64,000 nucleotides of DNA from Phytoseiulus persimilis (taxonomy: Eukaryota > Arthropoda > Arachnida > Mesostigmata > Phytoseiidae). A program made the position numbers and the translations under genes. Below the pieces are notes generated by a model. That model did not search any database. It saw nothing but the letters and a program-made list of their open reading frames with translations, and was not told the origin of the DNA. Location: the NCBI GenBank assembly GCA_037576195.1, contig JAQZDE010000039.1, forward strand, positions 62,001 through 126,000, written 5' to 3'. Every line of letters starts with the position of its first letter. Within the stretch, counting starts at the first letter, position 1. Shown piece after piece: positions 43,080 through 60,041 of this stretch.

Positions 43080-46000
43080 ATGGATGAGTCCCCGCGAGCT
43101 GAATCGGTGGACGATATTTATTTCGGTTTGGAGAAAAACAGTGTTCCAAGCCAAGACACTTCATCTCTAGAGAATAATTCCTCTTCCCATCAGAACAGTC
43201 AGGAATCGGAGAATGAAGACGATGACGCGCTTGTGATCGACGCCCAGGTGAGTTCTAGACTAACGTTGGAAGCTGATTCGAAAGAGTGTTATGGAGCCGC
43301 TCCCCTCCCTGGACCCGTTCTCCCCCTGACATCAACTTTCTCGTTTTGTGTTTCGATTTTGATCAACAATTCGTCATCTATTTATGTGACGCGAACGAAG
43401 CTGGTGTGTCCTCTCTCCGGCGTCGTATGTATCCACACATGGAGTGGGACCTATCCATGCGTGATTTCGCTACTCAGCCAGGCTATCTTCGACCATGACC
43501 TCTGGTACGTTTCAGGATGATGCCACCGAAGTCCCGTTTGCGGAACCGAAGACGCAAGACACTCCTGTGAAGTCCTCCCAGGACGATGCGTTCGACGCGT
43601 TCGAAACGGGCGAGTGGCGTCTTCCGGCCTCTGCGTCAACTGGAGCCCTGAGTGAATCTCTCGATCGTATCAGAGATTTGGCCACTGCGGTCGTGAAGGG
43701 AAATCAGGAAGCTAAGGGTAAGGTCCGATGAATTTCCGACAGTGTCTGTCGGTTGGATCAGGTCTGGATTGGAGCACACAGAGAATCGTCGATGGTCACC
43801 TTCAATTCCACGTTCTCCAGCTCAGGGATAATCCTCTCCTGTTTCCACCCCCTTCTTCCTAGTTCCTATGTCTGATGAGAAAGTTCGTCATTTTCCAGAA
43901 GCCAGATCGGAACTAGAGGCTCGGGAAGTCGAAGACAAAAGTCAGCACTCGCTGGACGAGCCGACTGACAATGAGAAGTCGAACGACAAAACGCTCGACC
44001 AGGAAGATCAATCGGAAGATTCGTCACTGGCGGTAGTTGTCGAAGGGGACAGCGAAGGCGACGATGATCTCAATCAGCAACTACTTGAAGAGCAGCTCGT
44101 CAAGGAGAAATCTCCTCCGAAAGAGCCCGAGAAACCTTTCAAGAGGGAAGAAGAGGCTCTGAACGCTCTGAACAATGTTCTCGATACATTGTGCAAGAGC
44201 AAGATGAAATCCAAGGACGAAGACCGCGACGACGGAAGCAACACAGATCAAGGAAGAGCGGAGGACGACAACCGAAAATCTAGCAAGGATCTCTATGACA
44301 ACCTCGAGGACTTTTCCAGTGGCGAAAGCTCTCTGCCAAACGAAGATGAATCTGACAGTGATGCTTTGGAGGGAATCCTCGAAGCCGCCTCGGAGGTCAG
44401 CTCGAGCGAGGACGAAATGCTCAAGCGGACGGAAACAGCCGGAACCGCCGGCAACGATGAGGTTGGTAGTTAAACTCTCGCATTCAACGCGCTACCTATT
44501 CAGAATCTGTTCCGGGATCCATTTGAAGGGAACTCCACGGTCTGTGTGAGAAGCGCGCTTGAGTCCACCTAACTGGTGATTGATCTAATGCTTTACTCAT
44601 CCAACACAGAATGCCACGAAAGAAGGGAAAGCGGATGATCAACGAAATCCGGAGCACAACAAGAGTAAGGAACCGGCTGTCAAAAGTGCGCCTGACGGTG
44701 TGAAAACCAACGGCGCCACTTCCTTCAAACTCAAACGGAAAACTGGTTTGGAAGAGGGCGAGCTCTCCGAGAGCAACTCAAACGGTTCCCATGTCTCCCG
44801 GAGGCTCCGAGATCTGAAACGGCGGAAGCGGCGGACGAGAAGTCAGCGGAACCCGTTGGCCCCTCTGCGTTCGAGGTCTGTCAGTCCATTGTCAGTGAGA
44901 TTCAGCGGGGACTCTTCGAGTGATGACAGCCCGATGAAAGCTCCTCTCGTACTGGACAGAACAGCGGTTCGGAAGGTTGTTCTCAGTCCGTCACCATTGA
45001 GGGATGAGGCTAATAACGCTACCAACAACGCGTCGACTTGGAAGAAACTGAACTCGAGTACGAAGAACAGAAACTACAGACAAGCGGGCAACGAGATCAC
45101 GGCGACAAACCACCTACAAACCACGCTGACGGTTGTGGCGACTGCGAACAAGAAGGTAAAGGTGTGTGTTGCTCTTCATCTCTCCATGACGTTAATACGA
45201 TCCTCTCTCGGTCTTGCAAAACTAATCGAAAGAACTCCACAGACGCGGCGCCCCGACAGGGAAGTGTATCAAGTGAGGAAGCGACGGAGTCGGTCTCCAC
45301 GTGGGAGGAGCCGATCCCCAGTCACACGATCGCCTGTTCGGCGGAGTCGAACGCCCAGAAGAAGTTTGTCTTCGCGGAGTAAGTCTCCAAAGCGGAGCCG
45401 ATCGCCGAATGGCCGGAGTCGTTCCATCGGGCAGGCTCGACCCAAAGGTCGGAGTCGTTCCCCCAAAAGAGGAGCTCGTCTCTCTCCAGGACGTAGCCAT
45501 TCCCCAGTGTCAAAGACCAAGCGACGATCCACCTCGAAGTCGAAACGCCGGAAGCGTTCGATCAGCCCGACGCCGCGGAGTCCTAAACGACGCGCGCGGT
45601 CGCGATCGCCACGGTCTCCCTTGGAGAAACGCAAGAAGTCCAAACAGAGGAAACAGAGGACGGCCGAAAAGCGTTCCAAGAAGAAGAAGAAATCCAAGAG
45701 TCACAAAAAGACGAAAGCCGTCGAAAGGAGCCGTAGCCGCTCCTCGTCACGGAGCCCGAGGGATCCGAAGAAGGTGTCAGAGAAGAAACGGAAGTCCAAC
45801 AGTGGAAGTTGGTCAAGATCCAGATCCAGAAGTATTCACATCTCAGATGGAGAATCGGTCGTCGCGTCACCCAGAGACAACCTTAAACACGCGCCTCCTC
45901 CACCGCCGCCGAAGCGACGCAAGAAGAAGACCCAGCACAAGAAGGCTGCGAAAGATCAAGGAGAACGTGTCGTTATCGATCTCAGTCAGGATACGAGTCC

Positions 46001-47711
46001 TGAGCGCGAGATTTCTTCGGACCTCAAACAGGACCCGAAGCAGAACAACAAAGAGGGTGAGTCCCAGCATTGGTTACGTGGAGCAACCATCCTTCAAGCT
46101 CGTGTAATCGAAACTAACTCCGCCTTTCTGTCTCGACAGATTCTTCGAATGTTGGGAAAATGTTCAAGACTAGCAAGTCAATTTCGGAGAAGGGCGACAA
46201 CCTGGTGATCAGTGTCAATTATAAGAAGAAAGCTCTCCAAAACATATTCGGGGACGAAACGTCGGATGAGGAGGTGGACCCTCTGCAACAGAAGAAAGAC
46301 GTTCGGAACGATAAGCCTCCCGAGAAACCTGACAGAACAAGCCCGGTCAAGAAGAGCCCTGCTCCGAAAGGGCCTCAGACACCGCCCGATAGCAGGAACC
46401 AAGACGAATACGACCCCTGTGAGCCGCTTGGAGATTCTCCATCAAGCACGCCAACGAATGACGAGCCTGATCAGGTCAGAATATCAAATTCACCCGAAAA
46501 AGATTCTCCGGTCGCGGTGACATCATCTCAGGGTAAACCCACGGTCGCCGTTCTCCCCATCGTCGATAACAAATCGCCAAAAATCCGAGACAAACGGAAA
46601 GTCTCACCGAAGGCTCCACCAGCTCCTCCCCTACCGCCTCCACCGAGCAAAGAGAAGCCGCCCTCCCCGCCACCCAAACTAGCACCTCCTCCCGTGCCAT
46701 CGTTCTTGTTCAATCAACCTCCGACGGTCCAGCCGCAATACATCGTCATGAATCCATTCTTGGTCAATCCGTACATGATGCCGATGCAAGCCGCGGCTGC
46801 CCCGCTCGTGACCTCGTCAGCGGCTTCAATGTCGCAAGTGTCTCTATCGTCGACAATAACGACGACGGCTCCGATGACGACGACGGCAACGGTCTCTTCT
46901 CGAGAATCTCATGCGACCGGCCCTGTAGAAGGGAGCCCGTATTCTCCTGGCGATAGTCCGCTGTTCAACGATCCAATAACGCCACCTACGCCGCTTAGCG
47001 CTGAGGACAACGGCGAAGGGTCCTCAAAGCCAGGAGGCGTATTTGACCAAATCGCCGCCGGCGTCGTCAAACCAACCAAGAAGAGACAAAAGAAAAAACA
47101 GAAGGTGAATCTCGGACGTGTACGGTTCGGATCGACACAAGTTTCCCCGCCTCGCCCAGTTTCTGATCCGTTTCTGTCCTTCCAGGTCGTGGTCAAAACC
47201 GCTGGTCAGCTCGTTGCAGAGTCGAAGGACGGTGATGAGAGCAATAAGGAGCGCTATGTGAAAATGGACGAAGCCCAGATGAAAATCCTTGATGAACTGC
47301 CTTCATCAGCCGTTGAGATGCAGGTCAAGGAGAAGTATCTTCAGAAACTCCATCGTCAGGAGCGAGTTGTGGAGGAAGTGAAACTGGCATTGAAACCATT
47401 CTACAACAAGAAGCAGGTCAGCAAGGATGACTACAAGCTGATCATGAAGAAATGTGTGCCCAAGGTAAGGTCCCGATATATTTTGGTGACTTTTCCTTCG
47501 ACTTGATCCATGCTTCGATCGATCTTAACTCTCACACGTTTCTCTCACGAGCTCTCATTGCATACTTACTCCACAGATTTGTCATAACAAGAACGGTGAA
47601 ATTAATCCAGCCAAAATCAAGGCTCTCGTCGAGGGCTATGTCAAGCGATACCGACATCTGGGTAAGAAACACAAAGCCCAAACAACGGCGAGTGCGGCAT
47701 CTACTAGTTGA
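43080..47711 (+). CDS. SR-rich CTD-associated factor, SCAF1/PHRF1-type
   Basis: Family knowledge: SCAF1, SCAF11 and PHRF1 share an RS-rich body and a C-terminal domain that binds the phosphorylated tail of RNA polymerase II, linking transcription to RNA processing. In-phase exons: 43080-43247, 43516-43717, 43863-44461, 44610-45155, 45243-46056, 46140-47464, 47577-47711, about 1262 aa. The N-terminus is acidic and Ser-rich, followed by [16 protein letters not shown], a dense RS/KR-rich block (exon 5), [15 protein letters not shown], a polyproline stretch (about 930-965) and the C-terminal domain ([12 protein letters not shown] ... [20 protein letters not shown]). No RING or PHD finger is visible, which favours SCAF1 over PHRF1. 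The donor after exon 3 is weak (GTTGGT). Bases 47105-47185 look like a further 81-base intron read through by the open frame. Confidence 0.88.
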
Positions 47712-49653
47712 ACGAGAAAAAAAGATGACGGAAGCGAAAGCCGCAAAACTCCCCTTGGATGAATCTGTACATATGGATCGTAAAGTATCTTCGATCGAAC
47801 GGCACAAGTGTTGAAATATCCCTTTCGGTGCGAAGCGAGAGATAGAATCTCAACTTTTGTGACAACCGATCGTTTCATTCATCTGCTGTACAGACCGAAC
47901 CTTCTCTCGGAGGTTCATTTTCAAGCGATAACCTCTCAAAAACGTCTGCCGAGTAATAACTTCAGTGAATCCATTCGATGGTGATCGGTTGAAGCGAGAT
48001 ATGCTCTCCCAAGCTCACCAATGGTTCAGATTTTTCCTTCAAGCCATGAGGTGTATCATCGCCTAACGCTGAAGCGTGGAAGCCGGGCAGGGGGAAGGAA
48101 AGGATTATTCTGCTTTCTGGGAGATTCGCGATTCGCTCCATGGGTTCCGTCACTGATGTGAATCGATCAAATTAGTACAACAAGAACGCCGCGCGGCTCA
48201 GGAGAGGAACGGCCCTAGAATACCAATTCTCTTTCGGCCCGTGCGAAGACCAGACAGTGTTTGCTTCGGAGTAGGGTCTCTGAAATTCATTTGACAAGTG
48301 TTGCTTGGAAACTGTATATAGCGTGTACAAAATCAGGGGAAGCTGGAGAGAAGATTTGAAACTAGGAATTTTATCCTCCTGGCTTCTGGAATGAAAGGAG
48401 AGTCAGATAACGGGTGGTAGAGAATCCAGTAATATAAAGTAGTTCTCAATTTTATTTCCGACTGCAAGGAGATTCGATGCCAGACGAGTATCGTGGTCTG
48501 CAGCTGTGCATATAGACGCGACGCAGATGTTTTCAACAGTTCGTGTGGATTGTGTAGATGGGAGGTACATTCTTTCACAGGATTCGTCAAGTACACACAT
48601 CTGAGTGCGAAATCATTCTCTCCGCGCAGGCATGTCTTATAAGCAGATGCTGTGTGAGTAAATACGTCAGTTTCTATAGGAGTGGGAACGCTGTTGAATA
48701 TTTCCCGGTTTCTCACTCAAACGAAGACGAACATAAACATGAGCATCCCGCCCGCCGTAATTTGTAAACTGAAAATGATTGATCCAATAAATACAGAAAT
48801 CATGAACGTAATTCAGGATAACTCTCACTACCGGTCATTGCACGACCGACGGGTTGGTATTTCTGAGATTATTTCCGGATGTGGACGGACTAAGCCCTGC
48901 ATGTCCGATCGACTCCGTAGTTCCCGAAGTAGCGAAAAGGCTCATTTTTTTCACCGGTGATTCCGGCGCGGAATACCAATTATATCCTTGGCATAGTCTT
49001 GACCTGAATGAGAGAACAATAGGAGACATAGCCTGGGTGATGCACGAAATTTATTCAATCCCGTTCTCCTCCTCCGACTTGCGTTTGAGATTTTTCATTC
49101 AAAAAACACTTGGAAACAGCTGAGGTTGGTTTTCCGTTTTGTCGGAGGGTATTATTGTTACGTCAAAGTTCCTTATGAAGATTGCTTCCGTTTTTACAAA
49201 ATGAATGTCCTTTTCAAGCAGAGATAAGTAATAATGTACAACGTTTAAATATTATCATCTTTCATGTCGTGAACGCTCGAACGCATTCGAGGGAAATGCG
49301 TTCGAGTTTTCGAAAATCTATACAACACTTCGTCACTTAAAGAAAAAAACTCTCGACCGTTCGGGCTTCCCCGGGTTCACTTGAGAGGATTCCTTGTTAC
49401 AGTCTGTCATGTCGGCCTTTGAAAACGGCAGTTTCGCCACTCCGGCCTCTAGTGTTGGCGCTAGCGAACGAAACTACATCGGCTGAAAGATCGGTTCATG
49501 ACAGACTCGTTCAACGCTGCTCACTCGCACCTGGTTTGCGAGAGCCCTTGCGGTCAAGTTCATGGCTATCCGGCGACAAGAGTCCGTCGAAGTTGCGACA
49601 GGCTCTATCAATGATGATGATGATGACACATCGGAGACTGTCCCTTCTCGCGT
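47712..49653. other. Intergenic and 3' untranslated region
   Basis: Between the SCAF1-type gene and the 3' end of the minus-strand transposase-derived gene. An AATAAA at 48786-48791 is a possible distal polyadenylation site for the former. Open frames at 48333-48716 (minus) and 48854-49123 (plus) are protein-like in composition but unrecognised. A 12-bp perfect hairpin is listed separately. Confidence 0.4.
49276..49306. repeat. 12-bp perfect hairpin
   Basis: CTCGAACGCATT, a 7-base loop, then AATGCGTTCGAG, with no mismatches. It lies between two convergent genes, about 350 bases beyond the stop codon of the minus-strand gene and 1.6 kb beyond that of the plus-strand gene. Confidence 0.75.
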
Positions 49654-50177
49654 CTACTTGTCGGGCTCGTCCATGTTTATATCGCCTCCGATTATGGAGT
49701 CCAGAAGCTTGTAGTTCTCAACGTTGTCCCACTTCAGCCCTTTAGTTCCGTCACAATCGTCCTTCGAATCTTCTTCATCCTTGATCGATAATAACACAGG
49801 ACTGTTCTCACGTCCGCCAGCTGAAAAATTCATGCGTGCCCGGGGCAAGCGATTAATAGAATAGCTCTTCTCATTCTCCGGGGGGAAACTAGACTATTGC
49901 GCTCTCAGCCATTGATCAGAGAGAAGGCTGAGGAGGAGCTCTTCGAGCATGCACTACTGACCAGGGAGATCTTCGAATAAGTTCATGGTGCCGGTGCTTT
50001 CCACAGGACCTCCCGAAGGAGCCGTGAAACAGTTGAGGTCGCCGTACTCTTCGAGATGCTCTTCTCCCCCCAGGTGGCTGCCTGCAAATCCGAACACAGT
50101 ATCATCCGGCGGAAGTTTCATCGTCACTGCGCTTGCAGAACTCGCCGACACCTTGACGCCCACTGATGACGTTGAAT
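49654..50177 (-). CDS. Alternative 3' ends of the SWIM/MULE gene
   Basis: Exon 13 (50177 downward) can end at the donor CCTG|GTCAGT (49962) and join exon 14 (49820-49654), replacing GQ-stop by a 55-residue acidic tail. If unspliced it stops at 49954 after only two more codons. The exon 14 acceptor (ATTTTTCAG) is strong and the phase matches, so I favour the longer form, with the shorter one as an intron-retention product. Confidence 0.55.
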
Positions 50178-53100
50178 CTGCAGAGACAAAGAACACTGAG
50201 AAAGATATCCGGGGAAAGATGCGAGGATTCGCAATGTGCATTTGGCATTGCGTAGACACATACTCAGGCTAGGATCGTCGTTGAGATGTTTTGTGGCGCC
50301 GTTTGTTATATCCATGTCTTCTTCATCTTCCAACGCTCCGACGGGAACCGCGGTTTTCGTAGCTGCAGGAGATGTTATGTTCACTTGTACTCTGTGGCCT
50401 GCGTTTCTCGTCCACGCTGTGTAAATCTGATTGATTACGGTGAACATGTTATTGAAGTCCGTCTGATTGCTAACTGCCGCCAGGGTTGCCAACCCATTGG
50501 TGATCTCTCGCATTTTCGCCAACTGGAAAGTGACATTCACGAATGAAAATCTCTCGGGATGAATCCTAGGTCGTAGAGAGTCAGATAGAGGAGGCAGGAT
50601 CCGACTCGGTCACCTTGTCGCTGTATTTCATTTCCGAGCCAGGGCCTTCACTGAGATCGCTCATGATATCGACAGGGAAAGGTTCAGTTCGACGCCACTT
50701 GTCCGGGATGAGGCAATCCTGCATGGGTATTGAATGAGCCATCGCGACTACAAACGCGTGACTGCAGGGGAGATGATAACTCTGGTGGAATGCGCAATTG
50801 CACGAGAAGTTCTTCCCGGGTTGAACTGTCCCCTTGCCCGCGACTGAGGATACAAGGTAGGTGGATTCGTTGACGGTTTGGGTCACGGAAAACTTATAAG
50901 TCCTGGAATGAATCATATATCATTACTGACCCGTTATGGAGTCTGCGTTCCGGCGTTTCCCGGCTGTGACCTGGCAGTGGAGGAAGCGGTTCGACAGGAT
51001 TACCCGGGCTTGCAACGGGCGGCATACGTCCTTGCGACATATTTCTTCCCACCGGGCAATGCAGAGCGGTAATAAGCGATCGGACACTGCATAGTTCTCG
51101 TGGCGAATAGCGCGCTTAGCGGAGAATACATCTAAAGACCTCCCAACGCCGGCATACCCGACAGCCTCACACGTGTGCGTGTGTGGTGATCCGAGCGGCA
51201 CCGGGAAAACATTGTGTGAAAACATAAAGAAGACACTCTTCGAGTGTTCTTCACGGAATATCACCGCGTTCGGATGTATGCCGACGTTGGATGAAGCATA
51301 AATCTGCGTGAATTCCTCTTTGTGCCAACTTTGACTCAGAACTGTCGAGTTTAGTCACCGAGGTAAACATTTCCCGTAAAATGTCTCTGAGGCCGTCCGA
51401 AACCATGTGATGCATTTCTGTCGAATTCGGCTCCCCGGAGACTCCAAGCTCGTGCTCACCATAGTGTTCCATTCTCGCAGGGTGAGCTTCCAGCTGAACA
51501 ACACAATGGCAGCGACTGAGGCTGCACAGAAGCCACGGATCCCCGAGGAACAACTCCGACAAATTGGCCGAGTGTTGAAGGACCCAGGAAGGCCTCTGAA
51601 GGAGCGCTTTCGAGCTCTATTCACATTGAAAAATCTTGGTAAGCTACGCAGTCGACGAGCGGCGAGCCAGTGTCCGGAGTGTGTCTATTCAAGAGGATTG
51701 AATCCCGAACTTCCTCATTTTGTCACAGAGGGCGGCGTTCCATACATCAGCCAAGCTTTCAACGATAAGTCAGCTCTACTCCTTCACGAATTGGCTTACT
51801 GCCTGGGACAAACTCAAGACCCGGAGGCGATTCCGATTCTCGTCAAAGTTCTCGCCGACTCGCAAATGGAAGCGATCGCTCGACATGAAGCGGGAGAAGC
51901 GCTAGGAGCCATAGGAGTACTCCACCAGAAGGCTAGATCGGTTCTCGAGAGCCACAAGAACGACTCGAATCCAGTCATCGCTGAAACTTGCCAATTGGCC
52001 TTGCGGCGGATAGAATTCATCCACAGTGCGGGGTACAAGGAGGCCAATGTGAAATGCTCAGGTTACGGTTCTATAGACCCAACACCGCCGTTTGAGGAAC
52101 ACAGCAAGAGTGTCGAAGAATTGCGAGAGATCCTGATAGACCCGAAGAAGCCACTGTGGGAGAGGTAAGACGATAATTTCCGTTCGGGTTCTGGAAACGA
52201 GCTCCGATCCAAGAAGGTTCAACGTCTATGCGTTTAATGCCATCAACGTCTGATGTTGTCGTTTCCAGATATCGAGCCATGTTCTCTCTGAGGAACCTCG
52301 GTTCACCCGAAGCCATCAAAATACTCGGTGAAGCCTTATTTTGTCCATCGTCGGCCCTGTTTCGCCACGAAGTCGCGTTCGTTTTCGGTCAACTCCAGTC
52401 GGAGGAGTCGATTCCATATCTGACGAAGTGTCTTGAGAACACTCAAGAATTGGGCATGGTACGGCACGAATGCGCAGAAGCGCTTGGCAGCATCGCGACT
52501 GATGACTGCAAGAAGCTGTTGAGAAAGTACCTGGATGATCCCGAGAATGTCGTTCGAGAGAGTTGCGAAGTTGCATTGGACATGTGCGAGTACGAGAACT
52601 CGGCCGAGTTCCAATATGCTGACACTTTGTCAAAAGTGCGCCTGGTTCACAATAAGTGTCGCGACGGTGTGTATCCGGGTACGCGAGTCAATCGCGCAGC
52701 AGTGCCTCTGGAGAAAGTTCCTTGGGATGTGGATTTCACTGAATATCAGCCCACTGAATACGAGGACTCGAAAGTTTTGGAAGATAAGCCCTGGGCGGAT
52801 GCCAAAATCACCGGAAGCGGCTCGGGGCTGAAGTTCAACGGAGTCGATGGCGGAGTGAACCGAATATCCTATGAAGGAGAATACAAGGTTGTGAACGGTC
52901 GTCCCCTGAATCCCCAGGGACGAACGGGGATCACTGGAAGAGGTCGACTTGGGCGTTACGGGCCGAACCATGCGGCGGATCCAATCGTGACTCGTTGGCA
53001 ACGAGACGCCCAAGGGAAGCAAGTATTCAACGAAATCACCCTGATGCCAGTCCTGGAATTTGTGGCGATTCAACGCCGGGATAACGGCCAATGGGCGATT

Positions 53101-56100
53101 CCTGGGGGGATGGTCGACCCAGGCGAGAACGTTAACTCGACTCTCAAGAGAGAATTCCTGGAGGAAGCGATGAACTCTGACAGCGGAGTATCGGAAGCTC
53201 AGAGGAAACTCGTGGAGTCATTCTTTGGAGGAGGTCAGCCCATTCACAAGGGCTACGTCGACGACCCCCGGAATACGGACAATGCGTGGATGGAAACAGT
53301 AGCAGTGAACTATCACGACGAGAAAGGTGATATCGTGGGAGGTATGGAGTTGTCGGCTGGGTCAGATGCAGGTAAAGTCTGCTGGATGCCAATGACCCAA
53401 GAACTGGACCTCTACGCGAATCACGCATCATTCCTCGAAAAAGTCGCTGAGAAGCTCGGGGCTCATTGGTGAAGTCATCAGTCGGACATTTCTCTGTTTG
53501 TGTCTTCCTTTAACTCCATCAATGAGGGAAATAAAGTTCGCTCTCAAGGGGAATAACGTTTGCATTTCTAGTGACGACTTCTGATGCAGATGAAGAAGGC
53601 ACCTCGGTGCGAAGAAATGAAGCTCCGAGAAATGAAGCTGTCTAGAACGGTAAGCTGGAAGTGAGCCACATGTTTAAGAGTGGTCTGACAGGCACTCACC
53701 GCGAAATCCGAACTTGGGTCAGAACGTGCAAAGCGGCGTAATCGCAGCATAGAGAGATGAGCCTGGCTTCGTGTTCGACCATTTTCATGTGGTACTCCCG
53801 GATGTCACACAATAACCGATCTGTGTTCGTTTGTTCGATTATACCTGGAGAGTAAACGTCAAATGTCATAAGGAAGATACGGGAGCTGCATCGCCCATTG
53901 ATGGGTTGATCGCACGGGAGATTCCGGTTAATAGTGGTCACGCCCTCAATGAAACGTAATGAACTCACCAGTTACGGCGTAAACCAGATTACATAGAGCG
54001 TCAGACAAAGTCTGCGATCTCTCACAGACGAGTGACATGAACTGCGAGAGGACCTCGACGCGGTCATTCATTCCATTCGCGAACGGTACAACGCCTTCTC
54101 TCTGGAATACAGGGCATCGTTTCGGTTGTTGTGTCTTGAGCGCTCAAATCCCTCACACTGTCGCTGAGCTCAAGATCTTGGTATATTCATCAACTCACTC
54201 TGAATCCAGCCCACATTTCTCTCGCGGGATGCCATTGGGTGTTGAAGTATTTGGCGAAGCGCGTTTCGATACCGTCGAGTTTCTTCAGGTGTTCGTTGTA
54301 GTTTTTTTCTTGCAAGCCTGAGAACATGCCTCGCAGCGTCTTGCAGATTCTCTCTTGAATCGGTAACGAGAGATCGATTCTGGTCATTTCTTTGAGCATA
54401 GATCGAACCACATGGAAATGACAGTAGAGTACACAACGGGCTCCTTCGAACAATGAAGCGAGTTGATTCTTAAGACGACGATGTTGTTCCCGATCTAGGA
54501 GTATGCAGCGCACGTTTCGCGCAGCCGGTTGATTGTGTTGGATGAAGACGTTCAGCAGCAGACCTTGATGAGGATGAAAGCGTTCGGCAAAAGATCAGTT
54601 TAGACGAAGTGTTAGTAATTCGCTGAACTACTACTATCGAGAAGGCAGAATGGCAGTACGAGGGATCTGCGAAAATCTTACCAGCCATCAGGCGGATCGG
54701 CTTCATAAGGATGGCGAACGCGAAAGGCCCTCCGAGGCCTTGGGCGTCATGCCCCGAGAAGGAAACGAGGGAATACTCAGGATTCATGGCGAAGTGGTAC
54801 CCCGCGTCGAACAACAGGATTTCGGGATATAGAGCAAACTTTCTCTTCATGTGTCCTGTTTGGAAAAACACTGCAACCAGTTCCGACTGGTTGTTCACAA
54901 TTATTGAGGAACGACTCTCGAGGTCGCATTCCTCCAGCTTCTGGAGCTCCTGGAAAAGCATAAGGAGATGGATCCGTATTATTTCTGAAGAAGACACCAT
55001 ACTCCACAACTAAAGTGTTCATCCTTCAGGGCTCGTGTAACGAACTCTTTAGGTCTGTCAACGACCAACATCCGGAACGGGAAGTTACCTGAAGAAGGAC
55101 TTCAACAGGGGCAGCGTCCCCCAATAGAGTCAGCTTTTCAGGAAGATCGACTATTCCTTTCAAAGTCAGCGCTCGATACTCCTCTTGAGGACCGATGTCT
55201 TCCTCTGCATCGGGTTCCTCGTCCCCGATACCCATTCCAAGGCCCATGCCCGGCACTGGCGAAGGGTGTGCGCCTGACTCATCGAGATCTTCAGCGTCAA
55301 GTAAATTGACTCCAATCGTCTCGGTTTCCACAACGTCTGGGACTCCGCTGCAAATTAGTCATGGACTTCAGACTCATCCGATTCGGTTCACAGAGAGGGG
55401 GTGGACGATGAGGTTAGTTACGGAATCGCGGATAGTAGCCGGCAGTATCACGTTCATGCGTCGAATTTCCAAACTCACTCGAGAGAGTCTTCGACGACTT
55501 CATCCTGTATGACGCTGGCAGGAGCGATAGGAGTGCTCGGTTGCTGAATGTCGGGTGTTCGTTCTGTGTGATCATGTACGGGATCGAGTTTGAGCACAAT
55601 AATGCAGTCAACTTTTCTTTCGTATTTAACAACAACTGTAGCTTTACAGTTACGAATATTCTTCCTGAAACGGTGAGACCTCAGGTTTTGAGAAAACGAA
55701 CACTGGAACGACCATCAGGGCTCTGAGGTTGACATTCTGTTGCGATGCGCGTAATTGGACATCCGAATAAATGTAAACTTACGGTGGTGTCTTCGGATTC
55801 GGTGTGTGGCCGCTCTTCGCTCGGTTGTTGTGAACACAGAGATATCGTACGTACACAAATTGCCATTTTTCTTCCACCTTCGGAGCCAGCTCAGGCTGTG
55901 ATTTTCCAAGAGCCGTGCTTTTGCTCTGGTCACGTTTTTGCGTAGCCACGTCTCTCCCTTTGTTATAGGCGGCAACAGTTCTGGAAGATGTACAGAAACA
56001 TTTCTAACGTAACAGCCGTTATCACATTGGTTCATTCAATGAACGTCATGCACGCCAGTATATCAGTGATCTATAGTTTCACTGACCGAGTCCGAATTGT

Positions 56101-56556
56101 GTGGCTATGAATCTTCATCGGTATTGCATAAGTCGACAGATAAGATATAGTGCGGTTGGGTAGTTTCATTCCCCCAATGAGATTCTAGCACGTTTTCGTG
56201 GTCGAAAGAACTCGATAACTCTTGTTTGACCGAACTGATTCCGTCAAATGCTGGCGGCACATCAACTTTCAATCGACCGTACTGTGAGCCGCTCGTCGTC
56301 GAGTTTCGGCGACTGTATAGAGTTACCCTCCAGGTGGAATAAGATAAGTTCTAGATCGGCACAAGCCCGGGGCATTGTGGAACCGGGGCGGAACTTGGCA
56401 CAAAGTTGGAGCTTGTTCCTCGAATGCTCGAGAGACCTACCTTGACGTGTTGACTTTATATTGTTGTCCGGTCGCTTGACACCACTCTTCGAAGCGGCTT
56501 TTCCACTCTTCCCACGAGTGGAATTCGTCGTTCTCTTTCAGTAAGGCCGAATCCAT
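49654..56556 (-). CDS. SWIM zinc-finger protein derived from a MULE transposase (ZSWIM1/3-like)
   Basis: Fourteen in-phase exons: 56556-56441, 55980-55783, 55664-55479, 55347-55089, 54949-54682, 54563-54199, 54101-53969, 53844-53700, 51493-51359, 51139-50927, 50902-50614, 50522-50264, 50177-49962, 49820-49654, giving 982 aa. Domains in order: a FAR1-like DNA-binding region ([13 protein letters not shown]111 ... H135xH137), an acidic linker, a MULE transposase core (LLFDAGYHF with D301, [18 protein letters not shown] with D366, CHFHV), a SWIM finger (C707xC709 ... C719xH721), and an acidic C-terminus ([13 protein letters not shown]). Two core aspartates remain; the third catalytic acid was not placed. 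No terminal repeats were seen and the gene has 13 introns, which suggests a domesticated host gene rather than a live transposon (inference). The junction 51359/51139 uses the weakest sites (GTGACT; GGGAG). Intron 8 contains the DOHH-NUDT9 gene on the other strand. Confidence 0.85.
51506..53472 (+). CDS. DOHH-NUDT9: Deoxyhypusine hydroxylase fused to NUDT9-type ADP-ribose pyrophosphatase
   Basis: Exons 51506-51638, 51729-52164 and 52269-53472, in phase, 590 aa. Residues 1-311 are DOHH, the diiron HEAT-repeat enzyme that completes hypusine on eIF5A. All four His-Glu metal motifs are present (64-65, 97-98, 223-224, 256-257), and its usual end ([11 protein letters not shown]) is followed at once, without stop or intron, by the NUDT9 domain (about 312-590). 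NUDT9 hydrolyses ADP-ribose to AMP and ribose-5-phosphate. Its marks are [20 protein letters not shown]-like [12 protein letters not shown], a Nudix box GGMVDPGEN ... REFLEE with catalytic acids intact, and [16 protein letters not shown]. The mitochondrial presequence of stand-alone NUDT9 is absent. The start is the Met matching DOHH; an in-frame ATG at 51410 would add 32 residues. The first intron (90 bases) is stop-free and in frame. The gene is nested in an intron of the minus-strand SWIM gene. Confidence 0.92.
53530..53535 (+). terminator. Polyadenylation signal for DOHH-NUDT9
   Basis: AATAAA 58 bases after the stop codon. It lies within intron 8 of the opposite-strand gene, so the nested gene can end before reaching exon 8 (53700-53844). 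Confidence 0.6.
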
Positions 56557-58001
56557 TGTTGTCCAACTGGGCCGACTGCGCCTCTTCAGACAACTCTGGA
56601 ATGCCGCCGACGCTTCTTCCCCACTACACGATTCCGAGCCCGAGTTTCTTTATAAGCTTTGGTTATGTTCACTTCAGTAGCGATCGGCTTGTTTGTAAAC
56701 AGGGGTTACCTCTGTCGTCTGCTACTGCTCGCGCCACCGCCATCGCTGCCGTTGAATCAAACTGTCATCCGACCGCGCCATTCGCACGCGCACGCTTACA
56801 ACGATTCGGCGAGATCAACTTCGGATGTTAGAACCACCCGAAAGAGCATCGTTGTAATCTTCATACGTGGATCGAGCATCGGGCGGCGGAAATCTTGCGC
56901 TCCACAAATCGAAAAACGTATCCTTCTCTTTATACATTCAATGTCGTCGAATCCCAGTTTTCTCTCCAATACAGATTAACATGCATGCAGTTCCAGCTCG
57001 AGAGCTCAATCCATCTCCTCTTTTCCACGCCTCGATTTCTGCACTTTTGAATCGAGTTGAAAAGATTCTGGCTCCCAGTTTGAGAACGTTACATCTCCAT
57101 TGGCCGATATTGTGTTTGACCGTTTTCCCGCAGATATTCCGATGGCTCTCCACAGGAATCGATAGCGCTCTACGGCTGTGTTACCTTGACTGAGTATCGA
57201 GAGAATTTCATTAAATGTATAAGAGACCACAGTTTTTCGTTGTTGTCTCGAAAACCGGAAAACGTATCTTCCTCCAGATCTGAGATCACGTGACTCCACA
57301 TCACGAACTTCGCGCGTTTTGAATCTCGTTCTTTGTGTTCAACTCTGTCAGACTTTCCACTGTATGAAGGCGTGAAACTAATCGCATTCAGTGTCACTTG
57401 ACGCAAATACGCTCTCAGTGGGATCTCGGTAGGCTCGCGGTGCCGCTCGAGTAACTGATCCTTCACCCTCACGGGACATCGGAAAACTTTCCGGTTATAC
57501 TCGATGAAAAGATTCATATCGCGAATGCTCCGTAAGGCTCGACTCAATGTCAATGAGACTTTTCCTTGGCGATAATTCCTCCACCGTTCCAATCTCTGTG
57601 TATTGGACGCGCTAAAATGAACCACATGCCGCAAACTCTAACCGCGAAAGTGCGAGAATCATGAGCGATGACTTAAGTTTGATAGATGAAGCCTCTACCC
57701 CTATTGGTTCTTCGTTCCTGGATGCGTTTACGATTTTACGCGAGATATGTGCAACTGACGATACCTTATCTCTTGCTTCTCGCGGCACTTCCGAATGAAA
57801 CAACTTTAGAGAAAACGCTCCGAGTATGACTCCATTTCCTCTACTTGAGTTTATTGTTCCGCTAACGATTGTTCGAAGTCGCATATTAAATTAGGCTTCG
57901 ATCAAAGGAGAACTCAGCTGGAAAATGATTCTAGTGCAAGTCGGGACGAGCTGGGTATCAGGGAGGCTCGATCTCGCCGTATTTACAACCCAGATGCACG
58001 T
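56557..58001. other. Region between SWIM gene start and cuticle gene end
   Basis: It holds the presumed promoter of the minus-strand SWIM gene and the 3' region of the cuticle gene, with AATAAA on the minus strand at 57855-57850, about 150 bases past the cuticle stop. Two overlapping minus-strand frames, 57612-57884 (90 codons) and 57170-57634 (154 codons), differ in phase and could be one broken reading frame. Neither matches a family I know. Confidence 0.4.
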
Positions 58002-59968
58002 CTATGAATGTAGTGGCACCAGGACGGCGCGGAAACCGTCGGGAACCCGCACGTAGCGCATCCGAAGGTCTGGGAAGAGACTGCCGCCTGGGAATCTGTA
58101 TCGACTTTCCAAATCGCCGGCCGTCGGATAGCGAAGAGGATTCAGGGGACGTGCTACGTCCGAGGGACTCAACGGAAGTCCAGTCGGAGTAATTGCTAAC
58201 GGGCTCGGTACACCGTGGGCCAAACCACCCGTAGGTGTGTGCACAGGAATCGACGACGGCTGAAGGCTCGATGGAGGTACTCCGGGCCCGGACGAACGCT
58301 CGGGATAGGGTAGAGCCGCCGAAGAGCGGAAAATTGCACCCGCGGTATTCTGGTTGTCGGTTCCGGGCTCGTTGGTGAGCACTTCTGCGCGGAAACCGTT
58401 GTGATCGGCGATATAGTTAACACGTCGAACATGACCATCTGGTTGACGGATTGTGTAGTAACCAACACGACGTCCCGAGGCGTCAGCAACTTCAGAACGA
58501 GAATGCGCACCACCGGCCTCAGTTGGCGAAACATAGGCGAAGCTGAAGGGACGCGGGACTCTGTGTTCTTCATCGCGAGGCACAGGCGGCAGAAGCGTGT
58601 GAAGTCGAGTGGCAAAAGATACGTCTATGGGGAGGAGTCCAGAGCGATCTCGGAAACCTGAGTATCCATGTCGGTAGAGCAGATGGGCGTTACGGTCGTC
58701 GACATAACCGGAAGATTTCACCTCGTCTGTGCGCCTGCTAATCTCATCTGGCGGGAGCCTACCACGGGTATCCTGGATTGGGGACTCCTTTGCGATTCCC
58801 AGAGAGAGAGCGGGCGGAGTAGTCATCGGTTGCGAGAATGGTGAGGTCGTTGTCGAATCAACATCTCCACCAAGTGAGGCGGATTGAGCCGAGGTTGGCG
58901 TCGCGTCAGTGAACGTTGTTGAAGATTGCACCGAAGACAAGCCCGGATCGAAGTCGGAGATGGAAGGTCCTCCGAAAAGGGACGACGAAGAGGACCCTGA
59001 TGATTTATCCAAGGGTGAGGAGCTCGATTCAGTCCTTCGACCTGGAAATTTCCAAACGCATTATTGTTCATCCTTGGAGCGCCTTCGCAGGGCATGCTCC
59101 GAAACGTGACTCGAGCCGTAGGCAGCTGACTGCTAGGTAGTCGCAGACTCACGCAGCGGTTTTTCTCCGAATTCTTGCTGGATCAAGCTCAGGGGACTGT
59201 CGTCCTTTTCATCGTCCTCAAGGTCGTTTTGAGCATAGGCATAAGCCGCTACGAGAAGCAGCGGGAGGATCCTGGAAGTTAAAGTCGAACTGAGCCGTCT
59301 TGCTAGAACCACTCACGCCCACAGTCTCCGGTGTCAACTTCGGGACAGACACGGATCGGTTAGCGCACTGAACGGTTCAGGGGAATGGGAAAAAGCTCGC
59401 ATTCACGAGCTCATCAGCTTAGTTCTCTCGTCTCAACATACTGGTGAAATGACTGCATCAGAGAGACTGCGAAGCAAACGCTCGTCACGGCGGTCGAGGC
59501 TGAAATGAGCGCTCAATTCCGAGAGGTTTCTCTTTCTGAACCTCAGAGAATAGATTCTCTCGACTGGAACGCGTACCTATTACCGCAGCTGCCGCTGCAG
59601 CGGTAGTAGTGACGCCGGGCGAAATCTCCGCTTGGACTTCCCCATCGCATCTTCGCAGAATGAATGTCGTTCCACGGAAAACTCACTAACGTGCGCCACT
59701 ATAATCAGCCGGCCGTTCCCCACATAATTGCTCCGTAACTGCGCGCCCGATTGTGCGTGAAAGTGTTAGGCTTGACCAATCATACCGAATCGAAGGGAAA
59801 ATTCGAAGCGTGTCGAACCACTTGGTTTTCGATTGGGGACGGGTGAAATCTTGCTCACGACTAAAAACCGGGACCGAGCCATAGGCGACTAGCGACGACT
59901 GGGAGTGTATCCAGGAGGGTACCGCACGGTTGCAACTGTCACTCAGAGAGCACTTACAAGAACTTCAT
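58002..59968 (-). CDS. Cuticle protein with Rebers-Riddiford chitin-binding domain
   Basis: Exons 59968-59958 (11 bases), 59271-59153 and 59041-58002, in phase, 389 aa. The first intron interrupts the signal peptide after MKF-L; exon 2 completes it (ILPLLLVAAYAYA) and adds an acidic segment. A Ser/Thr/Pro-rich stretch follows, then the chitin-binding RR domain at about 208-268 (FSFAYVSP ... GYYTIRQPDGHVRRVNY, ADHNGFRAEV, TNEPGT), then a Pro-rich tail ending FRAVLVPLHS. The protein is secreted and binds chitin in the exoskeleton. It is longer than a minimal RR protein because of both flanks. The ending TNEPGT resembles arachnid cuticle proteins (inference). A TATA box lies upstream. Confidence 0.93.
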
Positions 59969-60041
59969 GAGCACTGTGCGGGACGCGGCGTATTCCACTC
60001 GACGAATCCAACTTTGTGATGAGGGATGCTTGCCGAGAGCC

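Follow-up and report, generated by a model that had tools for sequence, protein, structure and literature searches.

Analyzing a window of 64,000 nucleotides from the mite Phytoseiulus persimilis (assembly GCA_037576195.1, contig JAQZDE010000039.1, positions 62,001 to 126,000 of the forward strand), we found a gene in which a deoxyhypusine hydroxylase (DOHH) is joined to a NUDT9-type ADP-ribose pyrophosphatase. The fusion locus lies at window positions 51506-53472 (+) and consists of three exons; its spliced product would be 590 amino acids long, with a calculated mass of 65.7 kDa. A sequence-only reading of the window had already proposed this fusion; its coordinates, frame and domain content were confirmed, while the earlier interpretation as a whole was partly supported. 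We consider, with a probability of roughly 0.78, that the sequence represents a real fusion gene, which would encode a single bifunctional protein of ~66 kDa with a working DOHH at the N-terminus and a working NUDT9-type ADP-ribose pyrophosphatase at the C-terminus. Its transcription and translation as one protein, its activity, its location and the origin of the fusion are what we infer from the observations below.

DOHH is a di-iron HEAT-repeat enzyme that catalyzes the final step in eIF5A hypusination, and hypusine, its product, is to our knowledge known from one cellular protein alone. Residues 1-312 of the fusion correspond to a full-length DOHH. Using phmmer against the PDB, we matched query residues 12-305 to 4d4z with an E value of 6.4e-90; we take 4d4z and 4d50 to be human DOHH. 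In this half HEAT_PBS and HEAT_2 score above their Pfam cut-offs, the repeats fall in two halves at full length, and all four His-Glu pairs are kept, at residues 64, 97, 223 and 256 of the fusion. Their counterparts are H56-E57, H89-E90, H207-E208 and H240-E241 in PMC9117371, which describes the four as strictly conserved and critical. From NCBIfam, 12 families gave weak matches, none of them at its own cut-off.

NUDT9 converts ADP-ribose to AMP and ribose 5-phosphate and is normally mitochondrial. Past residue 312, the fusion corresponds to its catalytic part. In the phmmer search against the PDB, exon 3 matched the ADP-ribose pyrophosphatase 1q33, presumably the human chain, over 274 residues (E 1.2e-97), and the alignment takes in the NUDT9-specific Cap region as well as the Core. 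The Pfam family NUDIX scored 39.3 bits against a cut-off of 21.1. The Nudix box is intact with both glutamates kept, reading KREFLEEA in the fusion vs KREFGEEA in 1q33 (REFLEE vs REFGEE; REFxEE). The region names Cap and Core are used as in an excerpt of PMC4974056, where 1qvj, whose sequence is listed as identical to 1q33, is named mitochondrial NUDT9. With these two matches, the four His-Glu pairs and the REFLEE box, the claim that a complete DOHH is joined to a complete NUDT9 is supported. An AlphaFold2 model of exon 3 made without an alignment had a mean pLDDT (predicted local distance difference test) of 40.7, and this result was not used.

Exon 3 (52269-53472 including the stop) is a single open frame of 431 codons, comprising the last third of DOHH and the entire NUDT9 part. 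The join, AAA/GTG at 52635/52636, falls within this exon, and neither a stop nor an intron is found there, just as had been read from the letters. The 4d4z match ends at residue 305 and the NUDT9 match begins at residue 317, which leaves an 11-residue linker. This linker is part DOHH tail and part NUDT9-like; at the equivalent place the TRPM2-like chain 6co7, which we assume to be from a sea anemone, reads LTLLHYKAR. Of the two alternative frames at the join, one contains two stops and the other none in the 60 codons viewed. Chance is no serious alternative, as both homologies are long, have E < 1e-85 and share a single frame.

The earlier claim of one frame over 51506..53472 is confirmed with one correction: the frame is continuous once an intron of 90 nt and another of 104 nt are removed from its DOHH part. 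Both introns of the fusion gene sit in the DOHH part, and the NUDT9 half is intronless. Intron 1 has a length divisible by three and is free of stops, so its retention would stay in frame and add 30 residues. The G+C content at third codon positions (GC3) is nearly equal between the halves, at 0.571 vs 0.577, and overall G+C is about 52% in the stretches measured.

We searched the P. persimilis genome (181 Mb in 127 contigs) exon by exon, scoring the best candidates of the first pass alone. With exon 3 as query, the matches were exon 3, the DOHH repeat encoded in exon 2 (38% identity) and a place on contig C1 (C1:37547452). The query of the NUDT9 half matched itself and C1:37547452, plus a weak further piece of the C1 locus (E 0.21). 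No second DOHH was found in this search, in which the DOHH part matched its own three exons alone at E up to 1. Nor did we find a stand-alone NUDT9 among the best candidates, the C1 locus being the sole other NUDT9-like match. A fusion of two complete enzymes is better supported because neither was found. One scan each of a prokaryote and a virus contig collection yielded no relative, as expected, which is uninformative on mites.

At C1:37545952-37549197, NUDT9-like sequence whose Nudix box is degenerate comes after a stretch resembling a coiled coil. Judged by eye, this locus looks like the C-terminus of a TRPM2-type channel carrying a NUDT9-H domain. Since its Nudix box is degenerate, the domain may be a non-hydrolyzing ADP-ribose sensor, as in vertebrates.

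The genome also contains deoxyhypusine synthase exons, at C2:9.32 Mb, and two eIF5A-like loci, one on contig C86 and one at C1:11.48 Mb. The former has an open frame of 177 residues including GKHGHAK, which we take to be the hypusine loop; at the latter 77 residues are open, representing the C-terminal end only. As eIF5A and deoxyhypusine synthase are both encoded, DOHH should be needed. According to PMC9117371, worm and fly embryos fail to develop once DOHH is ablated, and the mouse knockout is embryonic lethal. Given that DOHH is essential in the animals tested and that no other DOHH was found, the locus is probably functional and a transcript is expected.

To rank candidate splice sites, we scanned positions 50900-53700 with general position frequencies, not trained on this genome, and therefore used the ranking of the scores alone. 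The introns supported by homology have donors scoring 10.3 (intron 2) and 7.5 (intron 1) and acceptors scoring 10.6 (intron 1) and 7.4 (intron 2). At the join, the splice-like sites score low, with 4.1 for the donor AAA/GTGCGC and 1.7 for the acceptor (rank 22/202). Splicing at AAA/GTGCGC, which the sequence-only reading had named as a possible refutation, is disfavored by this rough scan, where the donor is only rank 16/163. On the (+) strand of 51301-54300, the single AATAAA or ATTAAA is the AATAAA at 53530, and none lies between the halves. Three rarer poly(A) variants, scanned over the same interval and strand, gave one AGTAAA, at 53851, past NUDT9. Taken together, the poly(A), splice-site and GC3 results favor a single transcription unit without proving it.

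Several observations weigh against a fusion that is expressed as one protein. The Met at 52582 might start a separate NUDT9 product. A base-level assembly error could still lie at the join, and the contig itself (C39) is short, at 157 kb against 54.7 Mb for another contig of the assembly. A second copy spread over many short exons could escape an exon-by-exon search. The splice scan lacks specificity: within the NUDT9 half, sites resembling donors score 7.8 at 53372, 7.7 at 53342 and 7.0 at 52667, close to or higher than the intron 1 donor (7.5), and have no evident use.

The first of these observations leads to the alternative that survives best, namely that one locus makes two proteins, with an internal transcript start or translation start at Met 52582 yielding NUDT9 alone, besides or instead of the fusion, which would then be a passenger in a set of overlapping genes. 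The sequence-only reading had stated that no Met can start NUDT9 alone until a point inside the domain. This stood for the NUDT9 half, in which the first Met, at 53044, is already inside the domain; it did not stand for the upstream sequence, where the nearest in-frame Met, 52582, lies within DOHH, 18 codons before the join. Its ATG has a G at -3, and the product would retain the entire NUDT9 domain. Yet the join offers no good acceptor for an alternative first exon, and with AATAAA and ATTAAA absent between the halves DOHH would still read through unless it has another 3' end. Moreover, four of the first ~20 residues of the leader from Met 52582 are acidic, which is unlike a presequence. On balance, we regard two proteins from this locus as unlikely.

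Considerably less probable is an assembly or sequencing error, whether a true stop or frameshift near 52635 or two loci wrongly joined. The shortness of the contig is in its favor, but the assembly is gapless across the join, no start codon for NUDT9 occurs in its half before 53044, and the genome searches gave, among their best candidates, no other exons of DOHH or of a stand-alone NUDT9 that could be the source of a chimera. A wrong joint would also need to fall exactly between the domains and in frame.

If the fusion is real, its origin is most simply explained by a DOHH gene and a NUDT9 gene that became head-to-tail neighbors, after which a deletion would have taken the last residues and the stop of DOHH along with the NUDT9 promoter, presequence and start. 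The fusion would be tolerated because both joined ends are expendable: the DOHH tail past residue 305 is not covered by the matched crystal chain, and the NUDT9 presequence is no part of the catalytic domain. Both activities would probably be carried side by side with no direct chemical coupling, and would share expression and location, most likely in the cytosol.

The NUDT9 presequence, which had been reported as missing, is indeed absent, the NUDT9 homology starting 11 residues past the end of the DOHH homology. Without it the product should be cytosolic, and NUDT9 activity would thereby be relocated, as had been suggested. We examined the possible N-termini with a hydrophobic-moment script, which is crude and no trained presequence predictor. 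An extension from an in-frame ATG at 51410 adds 32 residues with a net charge of +4 and is not amphipathic, its moment being equaled or exceeded in 63% of 2000 shuffles. Given the strong acceptor-like site at 51480, the stretch upstream of the start may be an intron, possibly one in the 5' untranslated region. The normal N-terminus (28 residues tested) is amphipathic, with 0.2% of shuffles reaching its moment; it carries a net charge of +1 and several acidic residues, and part of it falls in the region aligned with DOHH, which starts at residue 12. This amphipathic N-terminus does not favor a cytosolic location.

Physical coupling of the two enzymes, another suggestion of the sequence-only reading, follows if a single protein is made, and hypusination might then be functionally coupled with ADP-ribose clearance. 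With an E value of at most 0.01, PF00293 gave 12 matches in the genome, including the one in the window. Judged by eye, no NUDT5-type enzyme is among these 12, although an intron-split NUDT5 could escape. One of the matches, on C1, is presumably NUDT14-like, and this place is also the sole match of TIGR00052, below cut-off. Given that the 12 matches seem to include none of the NUDT5 type, NUDT9 in the cytosol might meet a genuine need. A stronger version, in which selection favored giving up mitochondrial NUDT9 for a cytosolic enzyme that hydrolyzes ADP-ribose and is bound to DOHH in a 1:1 ratio, so that hypusination would set ADP-ribose clearance and share its location, appears doubtful to us. 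Two closely similar Nudix exons, which we assume to be NUDT18-like, stand 6 kb apart at C2:23.045 and 23.052 Mb and are probably a tandem duplication.

We also analyzed the surroundings of the fusion gene (Table 1). A ZSWIM1/3-like gene flanks it on both sides on the opposite strand, at window positions 50584-55009 (-). The RNaseH-like domain PF21056, at about 54.5-55.0 kb (-), and DUF5575_C, at about 54.2-54.6 kb (-), are above cut-off; a SWIM-like exon at about 50.6-50.9 kb (-), with E 0.038, is below it. From this arrangement the fusion gene appears to be nested antisense within an intron of the ZSWIM1/3-like gene. Other (-) splice-like sites occur inside 50903-53699, some of them stronger (the acceptor at 52869 scores 10.5), and further ZSWIM1/3-like exons are possible.

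The RNaseH-like exon has one match place in the genome, as does a 698-bp stretch past the fusion gene, so this is not a repeated mobile element. A search for inverted repeats in 46000-60000 (minimum length 18 nt, seed 11) found a single 20-nt pair of 80% identity, with arms at 49325 and 52412, the latter in exon 3, so that the pair does not bracket the gene. The pairing of RNaseH-like and SWIM domains recalls MULE-type transposases. We rejected the thought, suggested by the RNaseH-like and SWIM-like domains in the flanking opposite-strand exons, that the fusion is a non-functional copy captured or transposed in a mobile element in Pack-MULE style, the least probable of all the alternatives: exon and flank are single-place, the sole inverted pair has an arm in exon 3, both enzymes retain their active-site motifs, and no further copy was found.

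Table 1. Positions of the exons, introns and signals of the DOHH-NUDT9 fusion gene and of the proposed intron around it (window coordinates)
Feature	Position	Strand	Basis
Exon 1, coding part; DOHH start	51506..51638	+	Translation; 4d4z homology from query residue 12
Intron 1, 90 nt	51639..51728	+	Donor rank 6/163, acceptor rank 1/202 in regional splice scan
Exon 2; DOHH HEAT repeats, His-Glu pairs 1 and 2	51729..52164	+	Translation, Pfam, 4d4z match
Intron 2, 104 nt	52165..52268	+	Donor rank 1/163, acceptor rank 3/202
Exon 3, DOHH part; His-Glu pairs 3 and 4, C-terminal tail	52269..52635	+	Homology, motif positions
Exon 3, NUDT9 part including Nudix box, ending EKLGAHW and stop	52636..53472	+	1q33 match, E 1.2e-97
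AATAAA poly(A) signal	53530..53535	+	Starts 58 nt past end of NUDT9 stop
Strong acceptor-like site, 25 nt ahead of start codon	51461..51480	+	Rank 2/202 among acceptors
Proposed intron, 2.8 kb, of ZSWIM1/3-like gene, enclosing whole fusion gene	50903..53699	-	Donor G 53699, acceptor last G 50903, phases match

Literature searches, with annotated eukaryote protein databases outside their scope (automatic annotations may exist), returned no paper on a DOHH-NUDT9 fusion, which is consistent with the earlier statement that no fusion of this kind has been described. The main text of the russet-mite genome paper (PMC7738191) does not mention hypusine or nudix, and gene fusion occurs there in a reference title only. 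For DOHH with mite, the searches led to a paper on a tapeworm secretome (PMC8308605), and for NUDT9 with mites to a review of airway TRP channels (PMC9497104). We read the domain architecture as real, probably functional and so far undescribed, and it is built from two well-known enzymes. A lineage with its seemingly sole copies of DOHH and NUDT9 on one chain would be a natural experiment. If the fusion is real, both enzymes tolerate a bulky partner at the joined ends, and one may ask whether mitochondria can do without NUDT9.

Compared with known systems, the first half resembles DOHH of 4d4z and 4d50 in being a full-length HEAT-repeat enzyme with four His-Glu pairs, the match reaching the end of the crystal chain. 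Relative to 4d4z, the first inter-helix loop (spliced, at intron 1) is two residues shorter and the middle is several residues longer. Unlike the DOHH of these structures, that of the fusion has no stop and runs on into NUDT9. The second half shares Cap, Core and the REFxEE Nudix box with NUDT9 of 1q33 and 1qvj; in contrast to these, it has no presequence of its own and a whole DOHH in front, and it stops 11 residues before the end of the 1q33 chain. With TRPM2 channels, which end in NUDT9-H (PDB 6co7, 8srh), the fusion shares the use of a NUDT9 domain as the C-terminal part of another protein, and excerpts of PMC4974056 and PMC11479946 make TRPM2 the known precedent for such a partner. A real fusion would thus add a second partner type for the NUDT9 domain: in TRPM2 the partner of NUDT9-H is an ion channel, whereas here it is a soluble enzyme, DOHH, with no TRPM channel attached.

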